64,000 nucleotides of DNA from NCBI RefSeq assembly GCF_018070075.1, contig NZ_JAGPXE010000018.1, positions 1-64,000 on the forward strand, written 5' to 3'. Below the pieces are notes generated by a model. That model was given only the letters and a program-made list of their open reading frames with translations, was not told where the DNA came from and did no database searches. The translations under genes were made by a program, and so were the position numbers. Origin of the DNA: Saccharopolyspora endophytica. GTDB taxonomy: Bacteria > Actinomycetota > Actinomycetes > Mycobacteriales > Pseudonocardiaceae. Numbering within the stretch: position 1 is the stretch's first letter; every line of letters begins with the position of its first letter. Positions 14,685 to 59,767 of this stretch are shown here, in pieces.

Positions 14685-14775
14685 GGCCGTCCCGGGGACG
14701 AGCGCGCAGAGTCACCAGTGCACCTCTTCGGCAGGAGGCGCGGCCACTCGCTCGCGAGACGAAGGAGAAACGCCC

Positions 14776-15945
14776 ATGTCCAGGAAGGTCCGGCTCGGGA
14801 TCATCGGTTTCGGGGCCCAGGGCTCGGCGTACGCGAAGTTCATCGAGGACGGCCTGGTCCCCAACGTCGAGATCGGCGCCATCGCCGACGTCCAGGCCGC
14901 CAGGCGGGAGGCCGCTGCCGAGCACGGCGTCCCGGTGCACGAGGACCACGAGTCGCTGCTGGCCGGGGGAGAGGTGGACGCCGTCGTGACGACGGTGCCG
15001 CACTACCTGCACCCGCAGATCGGCATCGACGCGCTGCGGGCCGGTGTCCACGCGCTGGTCGAGAAACCGGCCGGGGTCTACACCAAGCAGGTCGAGGAGC
15101 TCAACGAGTGCGCCGCCCGGCACCCCGAGCTGACGTTCGCGATCATGTTCAACCAGCGCAACAACCCGCTGTACCAGCGCATCAAGCAGATCGTGGACGA
15201 CGGCGAGATCGGCGCGATCCGGCGGACGAACTGGATCATCACCACCTGGTGGCGCCCGCAGGGCTACTACGAGCAGTCGGCGTGGCGCGCCACCTGGGGC
15301 GGTGAGGGCGGCGGCGTCCTGGTCAACCAGGCGCCGCACCAGCTCGATCTGTGGCAGTGGATCTGCGGCGTCCCGAAGTCGGTGTACGCCAAGGTCGCCT
15401 ACGGCTTCCGCCGAGACATCGCCGTGGAGGACGAGGTCACGGCCGTGGTCGACTACGGAGGTGGGGCCACCGGCACCTTCGTCACCGCCGTCCACGACCT
15501 CGCCGGGACCGACCGGCTGGAGATCCTCGGCGACCGCGGCAAGATCGTCGTCGACGGTTCGAAGACCGCCACCGTCACCCGCCTGGTCGACGACGAGCGC
15601 GCGCTCTCGGACCGCATGGGCATGGACGACGTGCGCAAGCTCTTCAAGGGCGAGGTGGACCCGACGACCTACTACTCCCAGGAGGTCATCGAGTTCGAAT
15701 CCGCCTGGGGCGCCCAGCATTCGGGCGTTCTGGAGAACTTCGCGGCGAACGTCCTCGACGGCACGCCGCTGCTCGCGCCGGGCAGCGAGGGCGTCAACGG
15801 GGTGCGGCTGGCCAACGCGATCCACCTGTCGAGCTGGCTCGGCCACGAGGTCCCGCTCGACTTCGACGAGGGCCTCTACCTGGCCGAGCTCAACAAGCGC
15901 ATCCGCGCGGAGGGCGAGTTCCCCGAACGCCCGGCAGGCGCCTGA
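14776..15945 (+). CDS. Gfo/Idh/MocA-family oxidoreductase (second copy)
   Basis: A 389-residue dehydrogenase. The Rossmann motif is LGIIGFGAQGSAYAKF; the catalytic lysine region is ALVEKPAGVYTKQVEE. GGGVLVNQAPHQLDLWQW is the conserved substrate-binding block of this subgroup. ATG 14776 is preceded by AAGGAG at 8 bases. It diverges from the isomerase/dehydrogenase pair across the paired operator sites and ends in a very strong terminator, so it is a single-gene transcript. Together with the MFS gene and the second isomerase it suggests a two-dehydrogenase route for one polyol or sugar. Confidence 0.88.
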   Translation: MSRKVRLGIIGFGAQGSAYAKFIEDGLVPNVEIGAIADVQAARREAAAEHGVPVHEDHESLLAGGEVDAVVTTVPHYLHPQIGIDALRAGVHALVEKPAGVYTKQVEELNECAARHPELTFAIMFNQRNNPLYQRIKQIVDDGEIGAIRRTNWIITTWWRPQGYYEQSAWRATWGGEGGGVLVNQAPHQLDLWQWICGVPKSVYAKVAYGFRRDIAVEDEVTAVVDYGGGATGTFVTAVHDLAGTDRLEILGDRGKIVVDGSKTATVTRLVDDERALSDRMGMDDVRKLFKGEVDPTTYYSQEVIEFESAWGAQHSGVLENFAANVLDGTPLLAPGSEGVNGVRLANAIHLSSWLGHEVPLDFDEGLYLAELNKRIRAEGEFPERPAGA

Positions 15946-15953
15946 CCCCGCAG

Positions 15954-16000
15954 CAGGACGCCCTGGCTCCGCCTCCCGCAGGCGGAGCCAGGGCGTCCTG
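15954..16000. terminator. Very long hairpin terminator
   Basis: A perfect 21-bp stem (15954-15974 with 15980-16000) and a 5-base loop, starting 8 bases after the stop of the Gfo/Idh gene. It has no T-run. Confidence 0.85.
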
Positions 16001-16040
16001 TTGTCGGCCGGGAGAGCAGGTCAGGAGGGGGTTCGGCTGC

Positions 16041-16057
16041 AACTACTGGCAACCGCT
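16041..16057 (+). promoter_or_regulatory. Third copy of the GGCAACC 17-mer
   Basis: AACTACTGGCAACCGCT matches the two 17-mers at 14623-14639 and 14668-14684 at 11 or more positions, including the GGCAACC core. It lies about 140 bases before the MFS start, in the 248-base gap that otherwise holds only the terminator of the preceding gene. Confidence 0.45.
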
Positions 16058-16193
16058 TCTGTCCCGCTGTGACGTCTGTCGCAATGGTGTGCACCTCGGG
16101 CTGGACGACGGGTGAGCACCGATCGTCACCGCCGCCCAGCCTCTCGCACCCGCGGTCGCCCAACGACGAGCGCCCGGCGAAAGGACGTACCCG

Positions 16194-17549
16194 ATGAGCG
16201 TGAACCACGCGGACGGTTCCGACTCCTCCGGCAGAGCGAACACCGGCAACCTCACCGCGGCCCCGGAGGAACCCGGTGCGGCACCCGTGAAGGGCCGTGG
16301 CAAGGCGATCGGCTCCCTCGCGGCGGCCAGCGCGGTCGACAACTCCGAGAACAGCCTGATCAACACGTTCTTCCCGCTGATCCGCGACGCCTTCGGGCTC
16401 AGCCTCGGCGCCCTGGGCATCATGGCGAGCCTGTCGCGGTTCGCCCGCATGATCGCCGGACCGCTGTGGGCCATGGCCGCCGACCGGTTCGGCCGCAAGA
16501 AGGTGCTGTTCATCGTCACCGGTCTCTGGGGCGCGTGGACCGCGGCGGCCGGCCTCGCGCCGAACTTCACGACGCTGCTGATCCTCTACAGCATCGGCGT
16601 CCTCGGCACCGTCGCCTCCGAACCGATCACCAACGGCCTGCTCAGCGACCTCTTCGACGACGAGCAGCGAGGGCGCGCCTTCGGCACGGTCCGCTCCCTC
16701 GGATCGCTGATCGGCATGGGGCTCGGGCCGGCCATCGCCCTGTTCGCCAACGATCCCAACGGGTGGCGCTACGGCATGTTCGCCATGGGCGGGCTGAGCG
16801 TGCTGTCCGGCTTCGCCATCCTGGTCTTCGTCCGGGAACCGCAGCGGCGCAGCGCCGTGTCCGACGATCCCGACGTGGGTCGGTTCCGCCTCGCCGACGC
16901 CGTGAAGCTGTTCAAGATCCCCACGATCGCGCTGCTCGGCGGGATGCTGCCGCTGGTGACCAGCCTCGTGCTGTTCACCTACTTCGTGACGTTCATGGTC
17001 GACGCCCGCGGTTGGGGCGTGCCCTCGGCCGCGCTGCTGTACTCGGTGTTCTCCGGTGGCATGGCGCTGTCGTCCTTCTTCGGCGGGTTCCTCGGGGACT
17101 GGTTCGTCCGGCGCTTCGGCCACAGGGGACGGATCATGCTGATGCAGCTCTACCTGGTCGCCGTGGCCGGGATGTCGGTGGTGGCGCTGCAGATCGACTG
17201 GGGCAAGGGCATCGTCGCCTACGTCGTGATGTTCCTGTTCGGCCTGATCATGCTGATCGGCTTCTCCGCCTGCGTGCTGCCGATGGTCTCGGCGGTCGCC
17301 CCCAAGCAGCTGTCCGCGACGGCCTTCGCCGTGCTGTTCTCCCTGATCCAGGGCGGACTTTCGGCGCTGCTGACGCTGGCCATGGGATTCCTCGGCGAAA
17401 CGCTGGGCCTGACCCAGGTCATGCTCTACCTCGTGACCGTTCCGTACCTGCTCAACGCGGTGTACTGGTTCGCCTTCTACAAGACCTACCCGAAGGACGT
17501 CGCCAGGCAGGACGAGCGCACGGCCGCCGTCGAAGCAGGGACCTTCTGA
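16194..17549 (+). CDS. MFS transporter, sugar/polyol module
   Basis: A 451-residue 12-helix major facilitator protein with a 40-residue hydrophilic N-terminal tail. The loop 2-3 motif is MAADRFGRKKVLF, repeated in weaker form between helices 8 and 9 (FLGDWFVRRFGHRG). It probably imports the substrate of the surrounding dehydrogenases. The isomerase gene follows after 37 bases, so the two form an operon. The upstream 17-mer shared with the divergent promoter suggests common regulation. Confidence 0.87.
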   Translation: MSVNHADGSDSSGRANTGNLTAAPEEPGAAPVKGRGKAIGSLAAASAVDNSENSLINTFFPLIRDAFGLSLGALGIMASLSRFARMIAGPLWAMAADRFGRKKVLFIVTGLWGAWTAAAGLAPNFTTLLILYSIGVLGTVASEPITNGLLSDLFDDEQRGRAFGTVRSLGSLIGMGLGPAIALFANDPNGWRYGMFAMGGLSVLSGFAILVFVREPQRRSAVSDDPDVGRFRLADAVKLFKIPTIALLGGMLPLVTSLVLFTYFVTFMVDARGWGVPSAALLYSVFSGGMALSSFFGGFLGDWFVRRFGHRGRIMLMQLYLVAVAGMSVVALQIDWGKGIVAYVVMFLFGLIMLIGFSACVLPMVSAVAPKQLSATAFAVLFSLIQGGLSALLTLAMGFLGETLGLTQVMLYLVTVPYLLNAVYWFAFYKTYPKDVARQDERTAAVEAGTF

Positions 17550-17586
17550 TCCGATCTCGCACACCCCGACGACGATGGGAGAACGC

Positions 17587-18444
17587 ATGCCAGTCCTCGG
17601 CGTTCAGATGATGATGGTCAAGCAGCAGGTCGCGGAGCAGGGCATGTTCCCGGTCCTGCGCCAGCTGCGCGACCTCGGCTACGACGCGGTCGAGGTCTCG
17701 CAGATCCCGATGGACGAGGCCAACACCGCCGATCTCGAAAAGGGCCTCACCGAGCTGGGTCTCGACGTCGGAGCGCTGTCCGTCGCGCTCAAGCGCAACG
17801 CGTTCGCCACCGGCGACAGCCTCGACACCGACTTCGACAAGATCGTCGCCGACTGCGGGCGCCTGGGCACCCGCTACGTGCGGATCGGGATGATGCCCTA
17901 CGAGGCGATGGCGTCCAAGGACGCCTGCGAGGCGTGGGCGGCCGAGTGCGAGCAGCAGGCTCGGCGACTGGCCGGCGAGGGCATCACCCTGCTCTACCAC
18001 AACCACCACGTCGACCTCGCCCAGTTCGACGGTGAGCGGATCTTCGACCTCGTGCGCAGAGTCGCGTCCACGGTGGCCTTCGAGGTCGACCTGTACTGGG
18101 TGCAGCGCGGCGGCATGGCCCCCCGGGACATGCTCCGGCAGTACTCCGGCGTGTGCAAGACGATTCACGTCAAGGACTTCCGGGTGCTGCCGCTGCCGCC
18201 GGAGGCGGTGGACCTCATCGCCTCGGGAGACCCCGAGGACCGGGCGAAGTTCATGACCCTGTTCAACACCAACGTGCAGTTCGCGGAGGTCGGCCAGGGG
18301 AACATGAACTGGCCGGACCTGCTGCCCGCGGCCGAGCTGGCGGGGGCCGAGTACTTCTTCGTCGAGCAGGACGACCAGTACGGCCGCGACCCGATGGACT
18401 GCCTGCGCGACTCCCGCGAGTACCTCCGCAGCATCGGCTACTGA
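17587..18444 (+). CDS. Sugar phosphate isomerase/epimerase (second copy)
   Basis: A 285-residue TIM-barrel protein of the xylose-isomerase-like family. Candidate metal ligands are in LLYHNHHVDLAQFD, VAFEVDLYWVQRGG, KTIHVKDFRVLP and EYFFVEQDDQYG. The LYHNHHxEF-like segment and terminal EQD are typical of the IolE/IolI-like and 3-keto-sugar branches. ATG 17587 follows GGGAGA; an ATG 12 bases earlier lacks a site. It is co-transcribed with the MFS gene and followed by a terminator. Confidence 0.85.
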   Translation: MPVLGVQMMMVKQQVAEQGMFPVLRQLRDLGYDAVEVSQIPMDEANTADLEKGLTELGLDVGALSVALKRNAFATGDSLDTDFDKIVADCGRLGTRYVRIGMMPYEAMASKDACEAWAAECEQQARRLAGEGITLLYHNHHVDLAQFDGERIFDLVRRVASTVAFEVDLYWVQRGGMAPRDMLRQYSGVCKTIHVKDFRVLPLPPEAVDLIASGDPEDRAKFMTLFNTNVQFAEVGQGNMNWPDLLPAAELAGAEYFFVEQDDQYGRDPMDCLRDSREYLRSIGY

Positions 18445-18459
18445 CCGCACTCGATCGTC

Positions 18460-18497
18460 TCCCCGCGTGAGGGCTCGTGCTCCGCCTCACGCGGGGA
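18460..18497. terminator. Hairpin terminator ahead of the ygc-like operon
   Basis: A 13-bp stem (18460-18472 with 18485-18497) and a 12-base loop. It ends 1 base before a TTGACA promoter box, so it isolates the next operon from read-through. Confidence 0.75.
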
Positions 18498-18498
18498 C

Positions 18499-18528
18499 TT
18501 GACACGCTGGAAGCGGTCTGGCTAACGT
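18499..18528 (+). promoter_or_regulatory. Promoter of the ygc-like operon
   Basis: A consensus -35 TTGACA (18499-18504) and a TAACGT -10 (18523-18528) with an 18-base spacer. The predicted start near 18535 coincides with the first base pair of a leader hairpin (18536-18554). That leaves a leader of about 180 bases before the first gene. Confidence 0.65.
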
Positions 18529-18535
18529 TCCGGCC

Positions 18536-18650
18536 CGACGGGCAGGACCCGTCGCACAACAGAACATTCGCTCGCGGCTCGCCGCGAGTGGTTACTAGAG
18601 ACGCAGAGAACAGTAACCCGTGCACGCACCGGGGGACTGTTCTCTTTTTT
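18536..18650 (+). promoter_or_regulatory. Structured leader RNA with antiterminator/terminator switch (putative GlpP-type target)
   Basis: Four stems can be drawn. P1 pairs CGACGGG with CCCGTCG (18536-18542, 18548-18554) at the predicted 5' end. P2 pairs CTCGCGG with CCGCGAG (18571-18577, 18582-18588). The antiterminator pairs GGTTACT (18590-18596) with AGTAACC (18612-18618). The terminator pairs AGAGAACAGT (18605-18614) with ACTGTTCTCT (18636-18645) and runs into six T (18645-18650). The last two share bases 18612-18614 and cannot coexist. A genuine T-run terminator is rare in such GC-rich genomes. It sits inside a leader whose operon ends beside a GlpP-family antiterminator gene. Binding by that protein is inferred. 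Confidence 0.68.
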
Positions 18651-18715
18651 CATGCCCGGAATCGGTTCTCCCGCCGATCCCGAGCACCCGCACTCACCAC
18701 AACGAGGTGGCCACG

Positions 18716-19992
18716 ATGAGAACTGCCCGGGACTGGGCGAGCTACCTGATCCTGTCGATGACGGCGGGGATCATCTTCCAGGTCGCCTACATCCGGTTCG
18801 TGTTCCTCGAACCGACCTACACCGCGCTCGGGCTCACCGGCCAGGAGTACGGCACCGTGATGGCCGTCTTCGGCGCCGTCGCGGCGGTGATGTACTTCTT
18901 CGGCGGCTGGTTCGCCGACCGCTTCTCGCCCCGCTCGCTGATCGTGGCCGCGCTCGCCGGAACCGGTGTCGCCGACCTCTACCTCACGACCACCCCGGGC
19001 TTCACCGGTGTGCTCGTGGCGCACGTGGTGATGGCCGTGACCGGCATGGCGCTGTACTGGTCGGCGCTGGTCAAAGCCATCGGCATGCTCGGGGACACCT
19101 CGCAGCAGGGCAGGCTGTTCGGCTTCCTGGAGGCGGTGCGCGGCGTGACCTCGACGCTGATCGGCGGGTTCGGGGCGGTGCTGGTCGCCCGGGCGGTCGT
19201 GCCCTCGGACGGGTGCTGGCGCTGATCCGGATCTACGGCGTGCTGGCCTTCGTCTTCGCCGGGCTGGTCTGGTGGGTCGTGCGGGTCGACCGCGAACGGC
19301 TCGCCGCGCTCGGGAGCAGCGCGCTCACCCTGCGGCAGCTGCTGGACGCGGCCCGCAACCGCTACACCTGGCTGCTCGGCGGCTCGATCATGCTGATGTA
19401 CTGCTTCTACACCACGCTCGGCTACTTCTCGCCGCTGCTGGAGAACGAGTTCGGCATGGCCGCCGGGCTCATCGGCGCCATCGGGGTGGCCCGCACCTAC
19501 GTGTTCCAGTTCATCGGGGGTCCGCTCGGCGGGGTGTGCGTGGACAAGATCACCCGGTCCACGGCGGGATTCCTGCGCTGGATGTTCGTGGGCGCGGCGG
19601 TCATCTCGGCGGCGTTCCTGCTGCTGCCCAGGCAATCCGGGCTGAAGTGGGTGGCGCTGGTGCTGATGTTCGCGCTGTGCCTGATGGTCTTCTGCAGCCG
19701 CGGGGTCTACTGGGCGGGTGTCGCCGAGGTCGGCATCCCCGAGCGGCAGCGCGGCGGTGTCATCGGCCTGGCCTCCGGCCTGGCCTACCTCCCGGACGCG
19801 TTCCTGCCGCCGCTGGCCGCCTGGTGGACCGGAGACCCGGCCGCCGGTGTGCCCCAGCGCGGCGGCGGGTACGACTCGATGTTCCTGTTCCTGGTGGCCG
19901 CCGGGGTGCTCGGCGCGGTGCTCACCACGATCATCCTGCGGTCGCGACGGGCGCGCGAGGCCACCGGCCCCGAGTTCGCGCCGGCCGCGTGA
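18716..19992 (+). pseudogene. MFS transporter (YqcE-like), interrupted by a frameshift
   Basis: Two adjoining frames encode one 12-helix transporter. From ATG 18716 the first half reads MRTARDWASYLILSMTAG and has the motif GGWFADRFSPRS, but hits TGA at 19223. The second half (ALIRIYGVLAFVFAGLVWW to 19992) is one frame off. Restoring a single base at the GGG run 19211-19213 gives a continuous protein of about 425 residues reading DGVLALIRIY across the join. It is therefore either a recent 1-base deletion or a sequence error in a G run. GAGGTGG lies 5 bases before the ATG. It is the first gene of the ygc-like operon and presumably imported its substrate. Confidence 0.8.
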
Positions 19993-20021
19993 CCACTTCC
20001 CACACTCAAGAAGGGCGATTC

Positions 20022-20798
20022 ATGGACATCCGCGACTTCTCGCTCGACGCGTTCTCCCTCGCGGGCAAGAACGCCGTCATCACGGGCGGCAACACCGGCC
20101 TGGGTCAGGCGTTCACGCTGGCCCTGGCCAAGGCGGGCGCCGACGTGTTCGTCCCCAGCGTGCTCGACGACGACGGCACCACCCGCGAGCTCGTCGAGGC
20201 CGAGGGCCGGCGGATGGAGTTCCTGGACGTCGACATCACCGAGGCCGGGGCGCCTCGCCGGGTGATCGAGGACTGCGTCTCCCGGCTCGGCTCGGTGGAC
20301 GTGCTGGTCAACTCCGCCGGGATCTGCCGGATGGCGCCGGTGGAGGACTTCGGCCGCGAGCAGTGGGACCCGATGCTCGACGTCAACCTCACCGCGCCGT
20401 TCGAGCTGGGCCGCGAGGCGGCCCGGTTCATGACCGAGCAGCGCTCCGGCAAGATCATCAACATCGCGTCGCTGTTCTCGTTCCTCGGCGGCCAGTGGTC
20501 CCCGGCCTACGCCGCGACCAAGCACGGCATCGTCGGGTTCACCAAGGCCTACTGCGATGAGCTCGCGCAGCACAACATCCAGGTCAACGCCCTCGCCCCC
20601 GGCTACTTCGCCACCGCGATCACCGAGCGCACCCGGGCGGACGCCCAGGCCAACCAGCGGGTCCTGGACCACATCCCGGCCGGGCGCTGGGGCGAGGTCG
20701 CAGACCTGATGGGCGCCACCGTCTTCCTGGCCTCCCGCGCTTCCGACTACGTCAACGGGCACGTGCTCACCGTCGACGGCGGCTACCTCACCCGCTGA
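20022..20798 (+). CDS. Short-chain dehydrogenase (KduD/YgcW-like)
   Basis: A 258-residue classical SDR. The cofactor motif is AVITGGNTGLGQAF; the structural motif is VLVNSAGI. The catalytic residues are N in LDVNLTAPF, S in IASLFSFLGG and YAATK for Tyr-Lys. The C-terminal HVLTVDGGYLTR is typical. Its nearest relatives by eye are 2-deoxy-D-gluconate 3-dehydrogenase (KduD) and gluconate 5-dehydrogenase types, so it likely oxidises or reduces a sugar acid or polyol at C3 or C5. ATG 20022 is preceded by AGAAGGG. It matches the YgcW position in the E. coli ygc gene set. Confidence 0.88.
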   Translation: MDIRDFSLDAFSLAGKNAVITGGNTGLGQAFTLALAKAGADVFVPSVLDDDGTTRELVEAEGRRMEFLDVDITEAGAPRRVIEDCVSRLGSVDVLVNSAGICRMAPVEDFGREQWDPMLDVNLTAPFELGREAARFMTEQRSGKIINIASLFSFLGGQWSPAYAATKHGIVGFTKAYCDELAQHNIQVNALAPGYFATAITERTRADAQANQRVLDHIPAGRWGEVADLMGATVFLASRASDYVNGHVLTVDGGYLTR

Positions 20799-20827
20799 CG
20801 CATCCCGCAACCCACACGGAGGAAACC

Positions 20828-22285
20828 TTGACCGCACCAACGGCATTCGACAACGACGAGATCGTCGCGCGGCTGCGCGAGATCGTGGGCGACGAACGGG
20901 TGGTGACCGACGAGCAGGTGCTGCGCGAGGCCAGCGTGGACCGGTTCAAGAAGTACACCGCGGTCCACGGCATCTTCGACGGCCCGCTGCCCAGCGCGGT
21001 CGTGCGCGCCGCCGACACCCGGCAGGTCGCCGAAGTGCTGGCCTTCGCCGACGAGCACCGGATCAACGTGGTGCCGCGAACCGGACGCACCGGCACCGAG
21101 GGCGGGCTGGAGACCAGCGTCGAGGGCACCATCGTGCTCGACGGCTCCGAGATGGCCTCCATCGTGCGCATCGACGAGGAGAACATGCAGGCCACCGCCC
21201 AGTGCGGGGTCCCGCTGCAGGTGCTGGAGGACGCGCTGCGCGAGCAGGGCCTGACCACCGGGCACTCGCCGCAGTCCAAGCCGCTGGCGCAGATGGGCGG
21301 ACTGGTGGCGACCCGCTCGATCGGCCAGTTCTCGACCCTCTACGGCGGCATCGAGGACATGGTGGTCGGGCTGGAGGCGGTGTTCCCGGACGGCACCATC
21401 AGCCGGATCAAGAACGTCCCGCGCCGCGCGGCCGGGCCGGACATCCGGCACGTCGTGATCGGCAACGAGGGCGCGCTGTGCTTCGTCACCGAGGTCACCG
21501 TCAAGGTGTTCAAGCACCAGCCGGAGAACAACCGCTTCCACGGCTACCTGATCGACGACGTGCGCACCGGTGTGTCGATCCTGCGCGAGGTGATCACCGA
21601 GGGGTTCCGGCCGTCGGTGGCGCGGGTGTACTCCGAAGAGGACGCCGCGCAGCACTTCTCGCACTTCGCCGACGGCAAGTGCGTGCTCGTGTTCGTCTCC
21701 GAGGGTCCGAAGGGGATCGTGGAGGCGACCAGCGCCGAGATCGAGCGCGTCGTCTCCCAGCACCCGCACACCGCCGTCGACCCGGCGCTCGTCCAGGCCT
21801 GGTTCGACAACCTCAACTGGGGACCCGACAAGATCAAGGCCGAGCAGGACACCATGCTCGCCGAGCAGCGCCTGGGCTACACCACCGAGGTCTCGGCGGA
21901 CTGGTCCAGCGTGGGCGCGATCTACGACGCGGTGATGCACCGCATCCGCACCGAGTACCCGCACGCCGCGGACCTGACGATGCTGGGCGGGCACTCCTCG
22001 CACAGCTACCAGACCGGCACGAACATGTACTTCGTCTACGACTACGCGATCAACTGCGAACCCCGCGAGGAGATCGAGAAGTACCACAAGCCGCTCAACG
22101 CCATCATCGTCGAGGAGGCCCTGCGGCACGGTGGTTCGATGGTGCACCACCACGGCATCGGCAAGTACCGCGCGCAGTGGACCGAGCAGGAGCACGGCAG
22201 CGCGTACCAGATGCTCGTCCGGCTCAAGGAAGCCTTCGATCCGCGCGGGATCATGAACCGCGGGACGATCTTCCCCGCGGACTGA
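20828..22285 (+). CDS. FAD-linked oxidase (YgcU-like, AGPS/GlcD superfamily)
   Basis: A 485-residue VAO-fold flavoenzyme. The FAD region includes VVPRTGRTGTEGGLE, and AQMGGLVATRSIGQFSTLYGG in place of the common GG(N) block. The C-terminal half carries GGSMVHHHGIGKYRAQW, the His motif of the alkyl-DHAP synthase branch, and ends RGIMNRGTIFP. In this setting it more likely oxidises a 2-hydroxyacid or polyol than makes ether lipids. TTG 20828 is chosen because GGAGGAAA sits just before it. It corresponds to YgcU of E. coli, whose substrate is unknown to me. It differs from the oxidase at 8991 in the His motif and charge pattern. Confidence 0.85.
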   Translation: MTAPTAFDNDEIVARLREIVGDERVVTDEQVLREASVDRFKKYTAVHGIFDGPLPSAVVRAADTRQVAEVLAFADEHRINVVPRTGRTGTEGGLETSVEGTIVLDGSEMASIVRIDEENMQATAQCGVPLQVLEDALREQGLTTGHSPQSKPLAQMGGLVATRSIGQFSTLYGGIEDMVVGLEAVFPDGTISRIKNVPRRAAGPDIRHVVIGNEGALCFVTEVTVKVFKHQPENNRFHGYLIDDVRTGVSILREVITEGFRPSVARVYSEEDAAQHFSHFADGKCVLVFVSEGPKGIVEATSAEIERVVSQHPHTAVDPALVQAWFDNLNWGPDKIKAEQDTMLAEQRLGYTTEVSADWSSVGAIYDAVMHRIRTEYPHAADLTMLGGHSSHSYQTGTNMYFVYDYAINCEPREEIEKYHKPLNAIIVEEALRHGGSMVHHHGIGKYRAQWTEQEHGSAYQMLVRLKEAFDPRGIMNRGTIFPAD

Positions 22286-22413
22286 GCAGGCAGGGCGGCC
22301 GCAACGGCGCGGCCGGCCCTTCCCGCCCAGGAGATGGTTGTGATTGCGACGGAGCCGCTCAGGTTCCGCCACCGAGCGAAGCAACCGATGAAGAGATCTT
22401 GCTTGGAGAGGCG

Positions 22414-23841
22414 ATGACGGGTTACCTGATCGGCATCGACAACGGGTCGCAGAGCACGAAGGTGACGATCTTCGACGAGCGCGGCAACCCCGTCAGCCGG
22501 GGGCGGCAGGCCTTGCGCCCCAACCACACCCCGAGTCCCGGGGTGGTCGAGCACCCCGACGACGACCTGTGGTCGTCGGTGGGTGCCGCGTGCCGCGAGG
22601 CGATGGCCGGTTTCCCGGGTGACCCGGCCGAGATCGCCGGTGTCGGGCTGTGCACCATCCGCTTCTGCCGCGCGCTGCTGCGCGCCGACGGAACCCTCGC
22701 CCAGCCGGTGCTGAGCTGGATGGACGAGCGGGTCTCCCGGCCCTACGCCCACACCGACGAGTCGGTCGCCCGCGTCACGACCTCCTCGGGCTACATCACC
22801 CACCGGCTGACCGGGGAGTTCCGGGACACCGCGGCGAACTACCAGGGCATGTGGCCGATCGACACCGACACCTGGCAGTGGTCGAAGGACCCGGAGGTGC
22901 GGGAACCGGTGGGCATCCCGCAGGAGATGCTCTTCGAGCTGGTCATGCCGGGGGAGACCCTGGGCGGGGTCACCGCGGCCGCCGCCGAGCACACCGGTCT
23001 GCCGGTCGGCCTACCGGTCGTGGCCACCGCCAACGACAAGGCCGTCGAGGCGCTGGGGTGCGGGCTGCGCGGATCGGGGGACCTGCTGATCTCGCTGGGC
23101 ACCTACATCGCGAGCATGACCGTCGGCGAGCGGAACGTCCGCGGCGCCACGGGGTTCTGGACCAACTTCGGCAGCGTCCCGCACGAGTACCTCTACGAGA
23201 GCGACGGCATCCGGCGCGGCATGTGGACCGTGAGCTGGCTGCGGGACCTGCTCGGCGAGGAGGTCGTCGAGGGCGGGCGGCGAGCCGGCCTGAGCCCCGA
23301 GGAGTACCTCAACGCGGGTGCCGCGCAGGTGCCCGCGGGCTGCGACGGCCTGATGGCGGTGCTGGACTGGCTGGCACCGACCGACGCGCCGCACCGCAAG
23401 GGCGCGTTCCTCGGCTTCGACGGGCGGCAGGGGAGGTTCCACCTCTACCGCTCGGTGCTGGAGGCGATCGCGCTGACGATGTACGACCGGGCGGGCGCGA
23501 TGGCCGACGAGCTGGGCACCGGCTTCGAGCGGGTGATCGTCTCCGGCGGCGGAGCGGGTGCCGACGTGATGATGGGCATCATCGCCGACGTCTTCGGCGT
23601 TCCCGCGGTCCGCACGGCGGTCAACGACGGCGCCGGGCTGGGTGCCGCGATCTGCGCGGGAGTCGGTCTCGGGCGGTTCGCCGGTGTGGACGAGGCGGTG
23701 GCCGCGATGGTCTCGGTCGGCGAGGAGTTCCGGCCCGACGAGGCGAACCACGAGCTCTACGCGCGACAGCACGAGGTCTACCGGGACATCACCCGGCACA
23801 CCGACGAGGTGTTCCGCCGCTCCGCCCGGATCTTCGGCTGA
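22414..23841 (+). CDS. FGGY-family carbohydrate kinase (YgcE-like)
   Basis: A 475-residue sugar kinase. The N-terminal phosphate motif is LIGIDNGSQSTKVTIFD. The FGGY-like ATP-domain stretch is RVIVSGGGAGADVMMGIIADVF, followed by VNDGAGLGAAICAG. The catalytic aspartate is probably in VLSWMDERVSRPY. It phosphorylates a polyol or sugar made or imported by the operon; the resemblance is to glycerol, xylulose and YgcE kinases. ATG 22414 is preceded by TTGGAGAGG. The 128-base gap after the oxidase holds no terminator, so it should belong to the same transcript. Confidence 0.88.
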   Translation: MTGYLIGIDNGSQSTKVTIFDERGNPVSRGRQALRPNHTPSPGVVEHPDDDLWSSVGAACREAMAGFPGDPAEIAGVGLCTIRFCRALLRADGTLAQPVLSWMDERVSRPYAHTDESVARVTTSSGYITHRLTGEFRDTAANYQGMWPIDTDTWQWSKDPEVREPVGIPQEMLFELVMPGETLGGVTAAAAEHTGLPVGLPVVATANDKAVEALGCGLRGSGDLLISLGTYIASMTVGERNVRGATGFWTNFGSVPHEYLYESDGIRRGMWTVSWLRDLLGEEVVEGGRRAGLSPEEYLNAGAAQVPAGCDGLMAVLDWLAPTDAPHRKGAFLGFDGRQGRFHLYRSVLEAIALTMYDRAGAMADELGTGFERVIVSGGGAGADVMMGIIADVFGVPAVRTAVNDGAGLGAAICAGVGLGRFAGVDEAVAAMVSVGEEFRPDEANHELYARQHEVYRDITRHTDEVFRRSARIFG

Positions 23842-23842
23842 C

Positions 23843-24397
23843 TCACATCGCCCAGACGTCGGTGTTCGAGGAGGCGATGGCCGCCGCGCCGGCTCCGAGG
23901 GCGGCGACCACGTCGTCCTTGTCGCACACCAGGCCGCCGGCGATGATCGGCACGTCGATGTCCGCGCGCAGCCAGGTGATCACCCGGGGCACGCAGCCGG
24001 GCAGGATCTCGACGTAGTCGGGCTTGGAGATCGCGATCTGCCTGCCGAGGTTGTGGTAGGAGAACGAGTCGACCAGGAAGAACCGGTGCACGCCCAGAAG
24101 TCCGTGCGCGCGAGCGGCTTTCACCAGAGCGGCCTTGGAGCTGAGGATCCCGTCGGCGCCGGTGGTCTCCCGCACGAACTGGACGACGATCTCCTTGGCG
24201 ACGAAGCCCTCGACGAGGTCGACGTTGACCAGGACGGTCTTCCCCGCGTCCTTGAGCCGTTGCACCAGCGACGGCACGGTGAGCACCGAGCCGTAGAGCA
24301 GGAACACGACCGGGCACTCCGACCGGAGCGCGGCATCCAGCCCGGCATCGTCCTTGACGCTGGCGATGACCGGGTTGTCGAGCAGCAGATCCTCCAT
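23843..24397 (-). CDS. GlpP-family mRNA antiterminator (YgcP-like)
   Basis: A 184-residue protein of the glycerol-3-phosphate-responsive antiterminator family. Family stretches are PVVFLLYGSVLTV, VLVNVDLVEGF, DGILSSKAALVKAA, KPDYVEILPGCVPRVI, VPIIAGGLVCDKDDV and the terminal AAAIASSNTDVW, which form a TIM-barrel phosphate site. In Bacillus, GlpP with glycerol-3-phosphate binds glp leader RNA and prevents termination. The gene is convergent with the kinase (stops 1 base apart, no terminator between them). The leader 5 kb upstream has the expected switch. Such proteins are uncommon in actinomycetes. The ligand may be the kinase product rather than glycerol-3-phosphate. Confidence 0.88.
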   Translation of the reverse strand: MEDLLLDNPVIASVKDDAGLDAALRSECPVVFLLYGSVLTVPSLVQRLKDAGKTVLVNVDLVEGFVAKEIVVQFVRETTGADGILSSKAALVKAARAHGLLGVHRFFLVDSFSYHNLGRQIAISKPDYVEILPGCVPRVITWLRADIDVPIIAGGLVCDKDDVVAALGAGAAAIASSNTDVWAM

Positions 24398-24471: not shown

Positions 24472-25116
24472 TCAGGACTCGAGCTGTTTGCGAGCGCCTT
24501 CGAAGAGGGTGGAGCAGGTCTCGACCAGGACGGTCGGCTGTTCCTGCCGCCCCCGGTGGAGCCAGTCGACGAGCAGGTGGTTCACCGCGCCGACGAGGCC
24601 GAGGGCGGCCAGCCGCTGCCGGTCGCTCGGGGCGGACTGGTCGTCGAAGCGCAGCCACACGGCGGTGGTGATCTCGGCGAAGTCCCGCAGGACCGCGTGC
24701 CTGCGGTCCTCCAGCTCCGCGGAGATCCCCACGACCTCCAGCAGGATCACGCGGGCGCGGCGGGTGTCGGCGGTGAGGTGCTCCACGAACGCCGAGAGGC
24801 CGCGCCAGGTCACCGCGTCGGCTTCGATCTCGTCGTCGAGCGCGGCGACGGTGGCGGCGCGGAGCCGGTCGATCAGCTCGTCGTAGAGCGCCATCAGGCA
24901 GGCGTGCCGGTCGCGGAAGGACTCGTAGAAGTAGCGCTCGGTGAGCCCGGCCTGCCGGCAGAGCTGCTTGACCGACGTCGCCGGGTAGCCCTGGGAGGCG
25001 AACAGCTCCAGCGCCGCCTCCAGCAGCGCCTCGCGGCGTTGCCGGGTGCGCTCGGAGGCGTCGAGCCCGGAGTAGCGGCGACCCTGTCGCTGCTCGTGCG
25101 CGGCGTTCTGCGTCAT
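24472..25116 (-). CDS. TetR-family regulator
   Basis: A 214-residue TetR regulator. The DNA-binding domain lies at about residues 25-70 (REALLEAALELFASQG, then TSVKQLCRQAGLTERYFYESF). The C-terminal domain is helical. It diverges from an SDR gene, and the 88-base gap contains a 22-base palindrome of the TetR-operator type. It therefore probably represses the SDR/MBL-like pair and itself in response to a lipophilic or steroid-like compound; the ligand class is a guess. Confidence 0.88.
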   Translation of the reverse strand: MTQNAAHEQRQGRRYSGLDASERTRQRREALLEAALELFASQGYPATSVKQLCRQAGLTERYFYESFRDRHACLMALYDELIDRLRAATVAALDDEIEADAVTWRGLSAFVEHLTADTRRARVILLEVVGISAELEDRRHAVLRDFAEITTAVWLRFDDQSAPSDRQRLAALGLVGAVNHLLVDWLHRGRQEQPTVLVETCSTLFEGARKQLES

Positions 25117-59387: not shown

Positions 59388-59767
59388 GGACCCGCGCGGG
59401 TTCCGAGGAGGAGTTGTTCCCCGCCGAGTCGAGGTGCGCATTTTTTCAACCCGGCGAGGCCGAATGTGAAAGTTTGTTCGGTGCTTTGTATTGCGCGGAT
59501 GTGTCGTGCGGGTTGCGGGTTTCGGCGCCCGATGACGTTTTCGAAACCGCGTTGTGTGGCGAGAGTCGCCAAAATATCCTAAGCGGACGAAAACCTTCGC
59601 GGACCGGTTTTGCTGCGTGAAAGTTGTTCGGGCCCAGCGGTACTGGTGTCATGAACAGCAGGTTCGCCGTTTTTGAAGCGCGATTTCGCGATTATCATGC
59701 GCGTTGTGCGAGTGATCCGCACGTGCCTTACAGTCGATCGCGAACTGCAGTGATGCGAGGTGATTTC
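59388..59767 (+). promoter_or_regulatory. Urease upstream region with a GlnR-like box
   Basis: These 380 bases are clearly A/T-richer than the flanks and show no coding pattern. At 59532-59547 the sequence ATGAC-GTTTTC-GAAAC fits the actinomycete GlnR half-pair GTNAC-N6-GAAAC at all but one position. A second half-pair is not evident. T-runs near 59440 and 59670 and several short inverted repeats suggest promoter or leader structure, but I cannot place a promoter with confidence. Confidence 0.4.

Follow-up and report, generated by a model that had tools for sequence, protein, structure and literature searches.

RNA-level antitermination by proteins such as LicT/SacY (BglG-type) and the ANTAR proteins follows one general logic, in which the protein keeps a small stem-loop folded at the expense of an overlapping terminator. 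To our knowledge, such control is sparsely documented in GC-rich actinomycetes. The closest described system is that of GlpP: in passages of PMC9604022, Bacillus subtilis GlpP binds glycerol 3-phosphate (G3P) and relieves the leader terminator, the promoters being PglpD, PglpT and PglpFK, and antitermination by GlpP at the Bacillus glpD/glpFK leaders is described in parts of PMC9604022, PMC6225680 and PMC7430163. Here we analyze a 64,000-nt stretch (the window) of the 7.17-Mb genome of Saccharopolyspora endophytica (Actinomycetota, Pseudonocardiaceae), with an operon, probably for sugar breakdown, that encodes a major facilitator superfamily (MFS) transporter, a short-chain dehydrogenase/reductase (SDR), a flavin adenine dinucleotide (FAD)-linked oxidase and an FGGY-family kinase, a leader in front of it, and a convergent gene for a YgcP-type regulator of the PF04309 (G3P_antiterm) family behind it. 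It is very probable that the leader at 18590–18650 is a YgcP-controlled transcription attenuator, with ligand-bound YgcP antiterminating the operon. The best reading is a YgcP-dependent antitermination element, a variant of GlpP-type control that has no Rfam match at the gathering score and for which no report was found in the literature searched.

Alternative folds of the leader

As in GlpP-type systems, the operon genes are preceded by a 5' leader with an antiterminator and an overlapping terminator, both on the forward strand and both identified by folding and covariation, the former also by conservation. The antiterminator stem-loop (18590–18618), the proposed YgcP binding site, pairs GGTTACT (18590–18596) with AGTAACC (18612–18618) around the loop AGAGACGCAGAGAAC, at –5.4 kcal/mol (equalled by 2 of 200 shuffles). 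In the intrinsic terminator (18605–18650), AGAGAACAGT (18605–18614) pairs with ACTGTTCTCT (18636–18645), the T-run extending to 18650, at –23.9 kcal/mol (equalled by none of 200 shuffles); at the RNA level, this late fold pairs AGAGAACAGU with ACUGUUCUCU, followed by the U-run. As the strands overlap, the two folds are mutually exclusive, in agreement with the initial annotation. The two-state element comprises about 60–66 nt and its T-run, six T. A formal terminator scan did not list the terminator, because loops were limited to 3–8 nt.

The T-run had been noted as unusual for such GC-rich DNA. Six-T runs are indeed rare, the window containing two (the sole other one at 59441–59446), but 13 of 100 shuffles contain at least two. 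Hence little weight can be given to the T-run by itself, which was discarded as a significant signal; the case is carried by conservation.

The promoter-like site consists of TTGACA (18499–18504), an 18-nt spacer and TAACGT (18523–18528). The TTGACA promoter proposed earlier is thus seen in the sequence, but a formal promoter scan did not list it, since four matches of six were required per hexamer and the –10 hexamer TAACGT has three. Upstream of the element, the 16 family leaders carry TTGACA in twelve cases, TTGACG in three and TTGATT in one. Two lineage-specific hairpins (18536–18554 and 18568–18591, forward strand) lie between the promoter-like site and the switch; both fold as previously described, but the alignment columns of the second are gaps in 6 of the 16 family leaders, and the pair was rejected as a part of the switch.

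Comparison with Rfam yielded one match for positions 18300–18800 (17.9 bits, gathering score 60), RF02377 as the best match for the Escherichia coli leaders (25.9 bits, gathering score 100), and no match at the gathering score for three Bacillales GlpP loci. Little was gained from comparison with PHROGs.

In the proposed mechanism, transcription would start downstream of 18528, and the nascent RNA would first form the weak antiterminator GGUUACU/AGUAACC, its loop displaying two AGAGA repeats. Unaided, the next 30 nt would draw the middle strand into the much stronger terminator, and transcription would stop at about 18650. The ligand-loaded protein encoded by the convergent gene would bind the antiterminator and block the terminator, allowing for read-through into the MFS–SDR–FAD–FGGY genes. 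Binding of ligand-bound YgcP to the antiterminator is most likely by analogy, given the homology to GlpP and the GAGA-repeat stem-loops as a common feature. The ligand is most likely a phosphorylated pathway intermediate, perhaps the kinase product, as the operon kinase would make it. If binding turns the operon on, the feedback suggested in the initial annotation would be induction by a pathway intermediate. Support for a phosphate ligand from the regulator itself is partial: the A-(G/A)-G-(L/F/M) motif, also present in the solved GlpP structure 3kts, is kept in 71 of 72 YgcP-type proteins, and the (S/T)-S-(N/D) pattern in only 33 of 72. We take both to form the phosphate site, as in other TIM barrels.

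For each of the 111 aligned elements, the terminator exceeds the antiterminator fold in stability, and therefore the early fold must be held by something for read-through to occur. This bears on the opposite possibility, that bound YgcP promotes termination and the free antiterminator is the default state. The direction of the effect is deduced, which leaves room for such a scheme, but given the stabilities termination should be the default, and GlpP of B. subtilis is an antiterminator in the passages of PMC9604022 concerned with it, so that we regard YgcP-promoted termination as improbable.

Conservation, covariation and co-occurrence with ygcP

In 200 genomes of the family, PF04309 matched in 25 at E 1e-3 and in 21 over the cut-off, the latter comprising 16 YgcP-type proteins (E 1.1e-55 or better) and five of a second clade (1e-40 to 1e-41). 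Within the 20 kb examined around each of the other 20 genes over the cut-off, SDR, FAD and FGGY genes are present in 15 out of 15 other YgcP-type loci, and a match to the window leader lies just 5' of the first gene in all fifteen.

A protein-profile scan provided a broader set, of which the best 80 of 143 named ygcP loci were used; they represent three phyla, and at least 11 come from the same genomes as the family set. A first regular expression matched 48 of the 80, the match in locus L126 not being the real element. The covariance model R1 was then derived from 43 elements, aligned blind to structure and hand-chosen from 65 found by regular expression with near-duplicates omitted. At E 0.01, R1 gave 113 matches in the 80 loci and the window; excluding two antisense echoes and the window itself, 110 elements in 71 loci remain. 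The next classified gene is MFS (50), SDR (41) or FAD oxidase (14) for 105 of the 110, with its BLAST match beginning within 400 nt; two more elements are located about 2 kb before an SDR gene and three have no classified gene downstream. The RNA thus stays at the operon head while the gene order changes, as expected of the target of a common regulator.

Moreover, the leader outlives the first gene. In S. aridisoli (L033, the same genome as L047) the MFS gene is present only as fragments and the leader is kept; in L026, L028, L029, L030 and L040 the search for MFS gave no match, and the SDR gene directly follows the leader; other relatives have intact MFS copies. In E. coli K-12 the ygcW–yqcE intergenic region contains two divergent elements, one per direction. 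Elements of two other E. coli strains score 72–79 bits with the covariance model, and at least 80% of the length of this 318-bp region is found in 4998 out of 5426 complete E. coli genomes.

Some loci show further arrangements. In L070 and L071, from Bacillota metagenome-assembled genomes, each locus carries a divergent pair of elements plus one more before the FAD oxidase gene inside the cluster, three in all, and the element begins just 2–7 nt past a –10-like box. The locus L124, from a record named Chryseobacterium, is enterobacterial in content (YgcW 93% and YgcU 88% identical to E. coli), the record probably being mislabelled or mixed.

Covariation of both stems before homologous operons with a GlpP-family gene had been proposed as a check in the initial annotation, and the result is positive, double changes and scores being above shuffles and slid controls far lower. 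In the 43-element alignment, six of the seven antiterminator pairs are changed at both positions (mean of shuffles 3.7), 93.0% of cells are paired, 38 cells are double-changed (12.6 in shuffles), and the covariation score of 0.404 compares with 0.237 for shuffles and no more than 0.172 for slid versions. For the terminator, six of 12 pairs have double changes (shuffled mean 4.2), with 94.6% of cells paired, 40 double-changed cells (14.7 in shuffles) and a score of 0.292 (0.169 in shuffles, at most 0.092 in slid versions). The middle strand changes jointly with both partners: one triple is A-U-A in 52, A-U-G in 35 and G-C-G in 21 of 111 elements, and a second, U-A-U in 83 and C-G-C in 24. On the YgcP tree, one antiterminator pair switches between A-U and G-C at least 5–6 times, and its terminator counterpart 4–5 times. 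As the alignment used for the switch and triple counts was fitted to the antiterminator, these counts lean towards it.

Such joint changes of three strands argue against the conserved stretch being a DNA operator for a repressor, e.g., the neighboring TetR (gene at 24472–25116), instead of an RNA element. Inverted repeats are typical of operators, and a candidate repressor is at hand; but the T-run and the loop are strand-specific, and no counterpart of the window TetR was found in the 20 family loci (threshold E 1e-10 over at least 80 aa), which makes this the least credible explanation, with hardly any probability left to it.

In three genome samples, the occurrence of the RNA tracks that of YgcP-type genes. 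Among the 200 family genomes, R1 finds the RNA in 16, exactly the 16 with YgcP-type genes, and gives no match in the five with only the distant PF04309 clade; as 14 of the 16 RNA-positive genomes also supplied training sequences, the information lies in the 184 without the RNA. In the genome of S. endophytica the only R1 match is the window element (150 scored of 421 candidates). The sample of 296 genomes from the phylum yields this genome and three matches at E 0.003–0.01, which is about the chance level, and no R1 match at E 0.01 in the 23 other genomes with PF04309 over the cut-off. Among 148 genomes of a gammaproteobacterial order (that of a Hafnia genome), R1 matches at E 0.001 in two, the same two with PF04309 over the cut-off. 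Finally, in 16 genomes reached via the named loci (K-12 not among them), all R1 matches at E <1e-3 are situated, by their coordinates, at the ygcP locus. Searches over 40 genomes applied stricter filters, and weak matches were lost in them.

This association also bears on the possibility of a riboswitch or a plain attenuator, the RNA sensing a metabolite itself or the terminator being unregulated, with YgcP acting elsewhere. The very conserved loop and the extra hairpins of the window leader speak for it, YgcP binding to the RNA being predicted. However, the motif is just about 60 nt long with a single short antiterminator stem, in the samples searched it was never encountered without a YgcP-type gene, and an analogous leader is present in GlpP-type relatives, protein control being established in the family according to the relevant part of PMC9604022. 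We therefore assign little probability to control by the RNA alone and retain the YgcP-dependent antiterminator.

Genes of the operon and its surroundings

The genes had been called correctly in the initial annotation and all have Pfam matches, the one correction being a frameshift that divides the MFS gene. This YqcE-like MFS_1 gene (18716–19992, forward strand) occupies two overlapping frames with a single-base frameshift near 19213, judged relative to a close relative with the gene in one frame; both frames match MFS_1 at E <1e-3, the second below the curated Pfam cut-off, and the frameshift could be an assembly error. It is followed on the same strand by the adh_short SDR gene (20052–20798), the FAD-linked oxidase/dehydrogenase gene (FAD_binding_4 with FAD-oxidase_C; 20828–22285) and the FGGY kinase gene (22414–23841, counted from the likely start codon). 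One-directional BLASTP to E. coli K-12 relates the products to YqcE (34/26% identity), YgcW (66%), YgcU (65%) and YgcE (49%), and the regulator to YgcP (50%), so that the suggested kinship to these E. coli genes holds at 26–66% identity, with the same RNA in E. coli. The best NCBIfam models for the kinase are XylB and AI-2 kinase, glycerol kinase ranking lower, all below the cut-off.

The regulator gene (23843–24397, reverse strand) is convergent with the kinase gene, with 1 base between the stop codons. Its identification as a GlpP/YgcP-type gene was right: the protein matches PF04309 over positions 1–173 of 173 (E 3.2e-58, 196.4 bits, cut-off 27), and only G3P_antiterm matches it. An alignment-based profile relates it to the solved GlpP structures 3kts (E 4.2e-42) and 1vkf (E 1.8e-25). 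The closest regulators among named records, 71–95% identical, are from Saccharopolyspora, Prauserella, Sciscionella, Amycolatopsis and two Streptomyces.

The TetR-type gene shares its strand with the ygcP-like gene and lies just upstream of it, and thus co-transcription of both is possible. Directly upstream of the leader, the 14764–18444 region encodes a GFO/IDH oxidoreductase, an MFS transporter and a xylose-isomerase-like TIM-barrel protein, followed by a strong hairpin at 18460–18497. These three genes were rejected as members of the conserved unit, having no match in the 20 family loci at the thresholds used for TetR.

Comparison with GlpP and other antitermination systems

For comparison we used 50 PF04309 loci of Bacillales genomes other than B. 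subtilis, 30 from a search and 20 from hand-picked places, mostly second copies. A simple scan found leaders resembling GTGACGGAGA..GGAGATCCAC in 14 of the 30 and in none of the reversed sequences, although a few of the 14 (L158, L182) are doubtful; other settings gave 11 of the 30 (one doubtful) and three of the further 20. These glp-type leaders have the form GTGACGGAGAnnnGGAGATCCAC, then the matching terminator. Out of sample, R1 gave one strong match in the 50 loci (L162, 56.9 bits; the next, 22.8), with a regulator 58% identical to E. coli YgcP and an element preceding SDR and FGGY genes. No other regulator of the 50 is a clear YgcP; two are marginal and lack a strong R1 match. In a FastTree phylogeny of 126 proteins, from which the extraction pattern had dropped 13 loci including L162, all 72 proteins with Ygc-type RNA are split from all 14 with glp-type leaders by one branch (support 99). 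The RNA type thus follows the protein clade.

Two further sets of PF04309 proteins stand apart. Nine Bacillales proteins (L221, L222, L225, L227–L229, L233–L235) score alike to YgcP and GlpP and have no clear leader of either type by the scans used; a third specificity is possible for them. Proteins of the second family clade (L041–L045), about 30% identical, have an FAD oxidase gene adjoining the regulator, and neither leader type was found. In L041, the list of open reading frames also shows, as judged by eye, genes for a GlpD-like dehydrogenase and an FGGY kinase. Leaders with RGAGA pairs were found near none of 23 and none of five distant actinobacterial PF04309 genes.

Several observations weigh against a YgcP-controlled attenuator. 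RNA and gene share one locus, so that their co-occurrence represents tight linkage rather than independence and co-inheritance alone yields much of it. Compensatory changes mostly reflect 1–2 independent events per pair on the YgcP tree, and further pair types are not above shuffles (9 vs. 9.8 in the antiterminator, 11 vs. 11.2 in the terminator). Sigma-70-like promoters matching at least 9 of 12 positions precede 44 of 111 elements, shuffled sequences giving an expectation of 21; for 12 elements, no sigma-70-like promoter is seen upstream. The leader of the window is followed by a frameshifted gene. Only 14 of the 30 Bacillales loci and none of 23 actinobacterial PF04309 loci showed GlpP-type leaders, the reversed control giving two in the latter. 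Nine of the 80 named loci have no element at the threshold (L072, L073, L074, L087, L095, L104, L105, L108, L125). Among these, L095 is a short contig without the operon, the contig of L105 stops before ygcU and ygcW, and five Curtobacterium-like loci reach 12–22 bits only; L072 and L073 have weak R1 matches elsewhere in their own genomes (E 0.0135 and 0.0036, respectively). Finally, the transcript start, termination in the cell, YgcP binding, the direction of its effect and the ligand are inferred. As to the clostridial genomes of L073 and L072, their loci L142 and L143, respectively, carry a divergent form of the element, GTTACC..AGAGAGTAAGAGAAA..GTAAC, outside the ygcP stretch examined, a candidate for control in trans.

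Overall, sequence comparison makes it likely that Actinomycetota, Bacillota and Enterobacterales, including E. coli K-12, share an undescribed protein-dependent RNA antitermination element, the cis target of YgcP, which would be a paralogue of GlpP that recognises an RNA of its own and responds to another phospho-metabolite; PF04309 would then comprise several RNA-sensor specificities on one leader plan. K-12 YgcP, annotated merely as a putative anti-terminator, gains a concrete candidate RNA target, and the control of ygcW/ygcU and of yqcE/ygcE becomes testable with a reporter, which would reveal the inducer. The leader may also serve as a signature for annotating PF04309 proteins by specificity. 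The ygcW/yqcE region of E. coli appears in a PhyloScan table of predicted binding sites (in the part concerned of PMC1794230) and in a table of RpoD promoters (likewise, PMC3946193). Our literature search, with subscription journals mostly outside its coverage, found no report on the ygcP, yqcE or ygcW leader. The factor of the PhyloScan sites is presumably CRP.

Compared to Bacillus GlpP, the window system has a PF04309 regulator as well and the same order of promoter, antiterminator stem-loop and overlapping terminator in the 5' untranslated region, and the Bacillales leaders also have two RGAGA repeats in the antiterminator loop. It differs in the operon, where the glycerol uptake genes glpF/glpK/glpD that mark a GlpP-type system are missing and neither glpF nor glpD accompanies the MFS, SDR, FAD oxidase and FGGY kinase genes; in the stem, GGTTACT/AGTAACC instead of the GTGAC/TCCAC type of the Bacillales glp leaders; and in the regulator, which belongs to a separate protein clade. 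E. coli K-12 has homologous YgcP, YgcU, YgcW, YgcE and YqcE and the same leader twice, but there ygcW–ygcU and yqcE–ygcE are divergent, each with its own leader, and the flavoprotein genes ygcN, O, Q and R and the transporter gene ygcS are added. LicT/SacY and ANTAR share the general stem-loop and terminator logic proposed for the YgcP leader, while their protein families are unrelated to PF04309.

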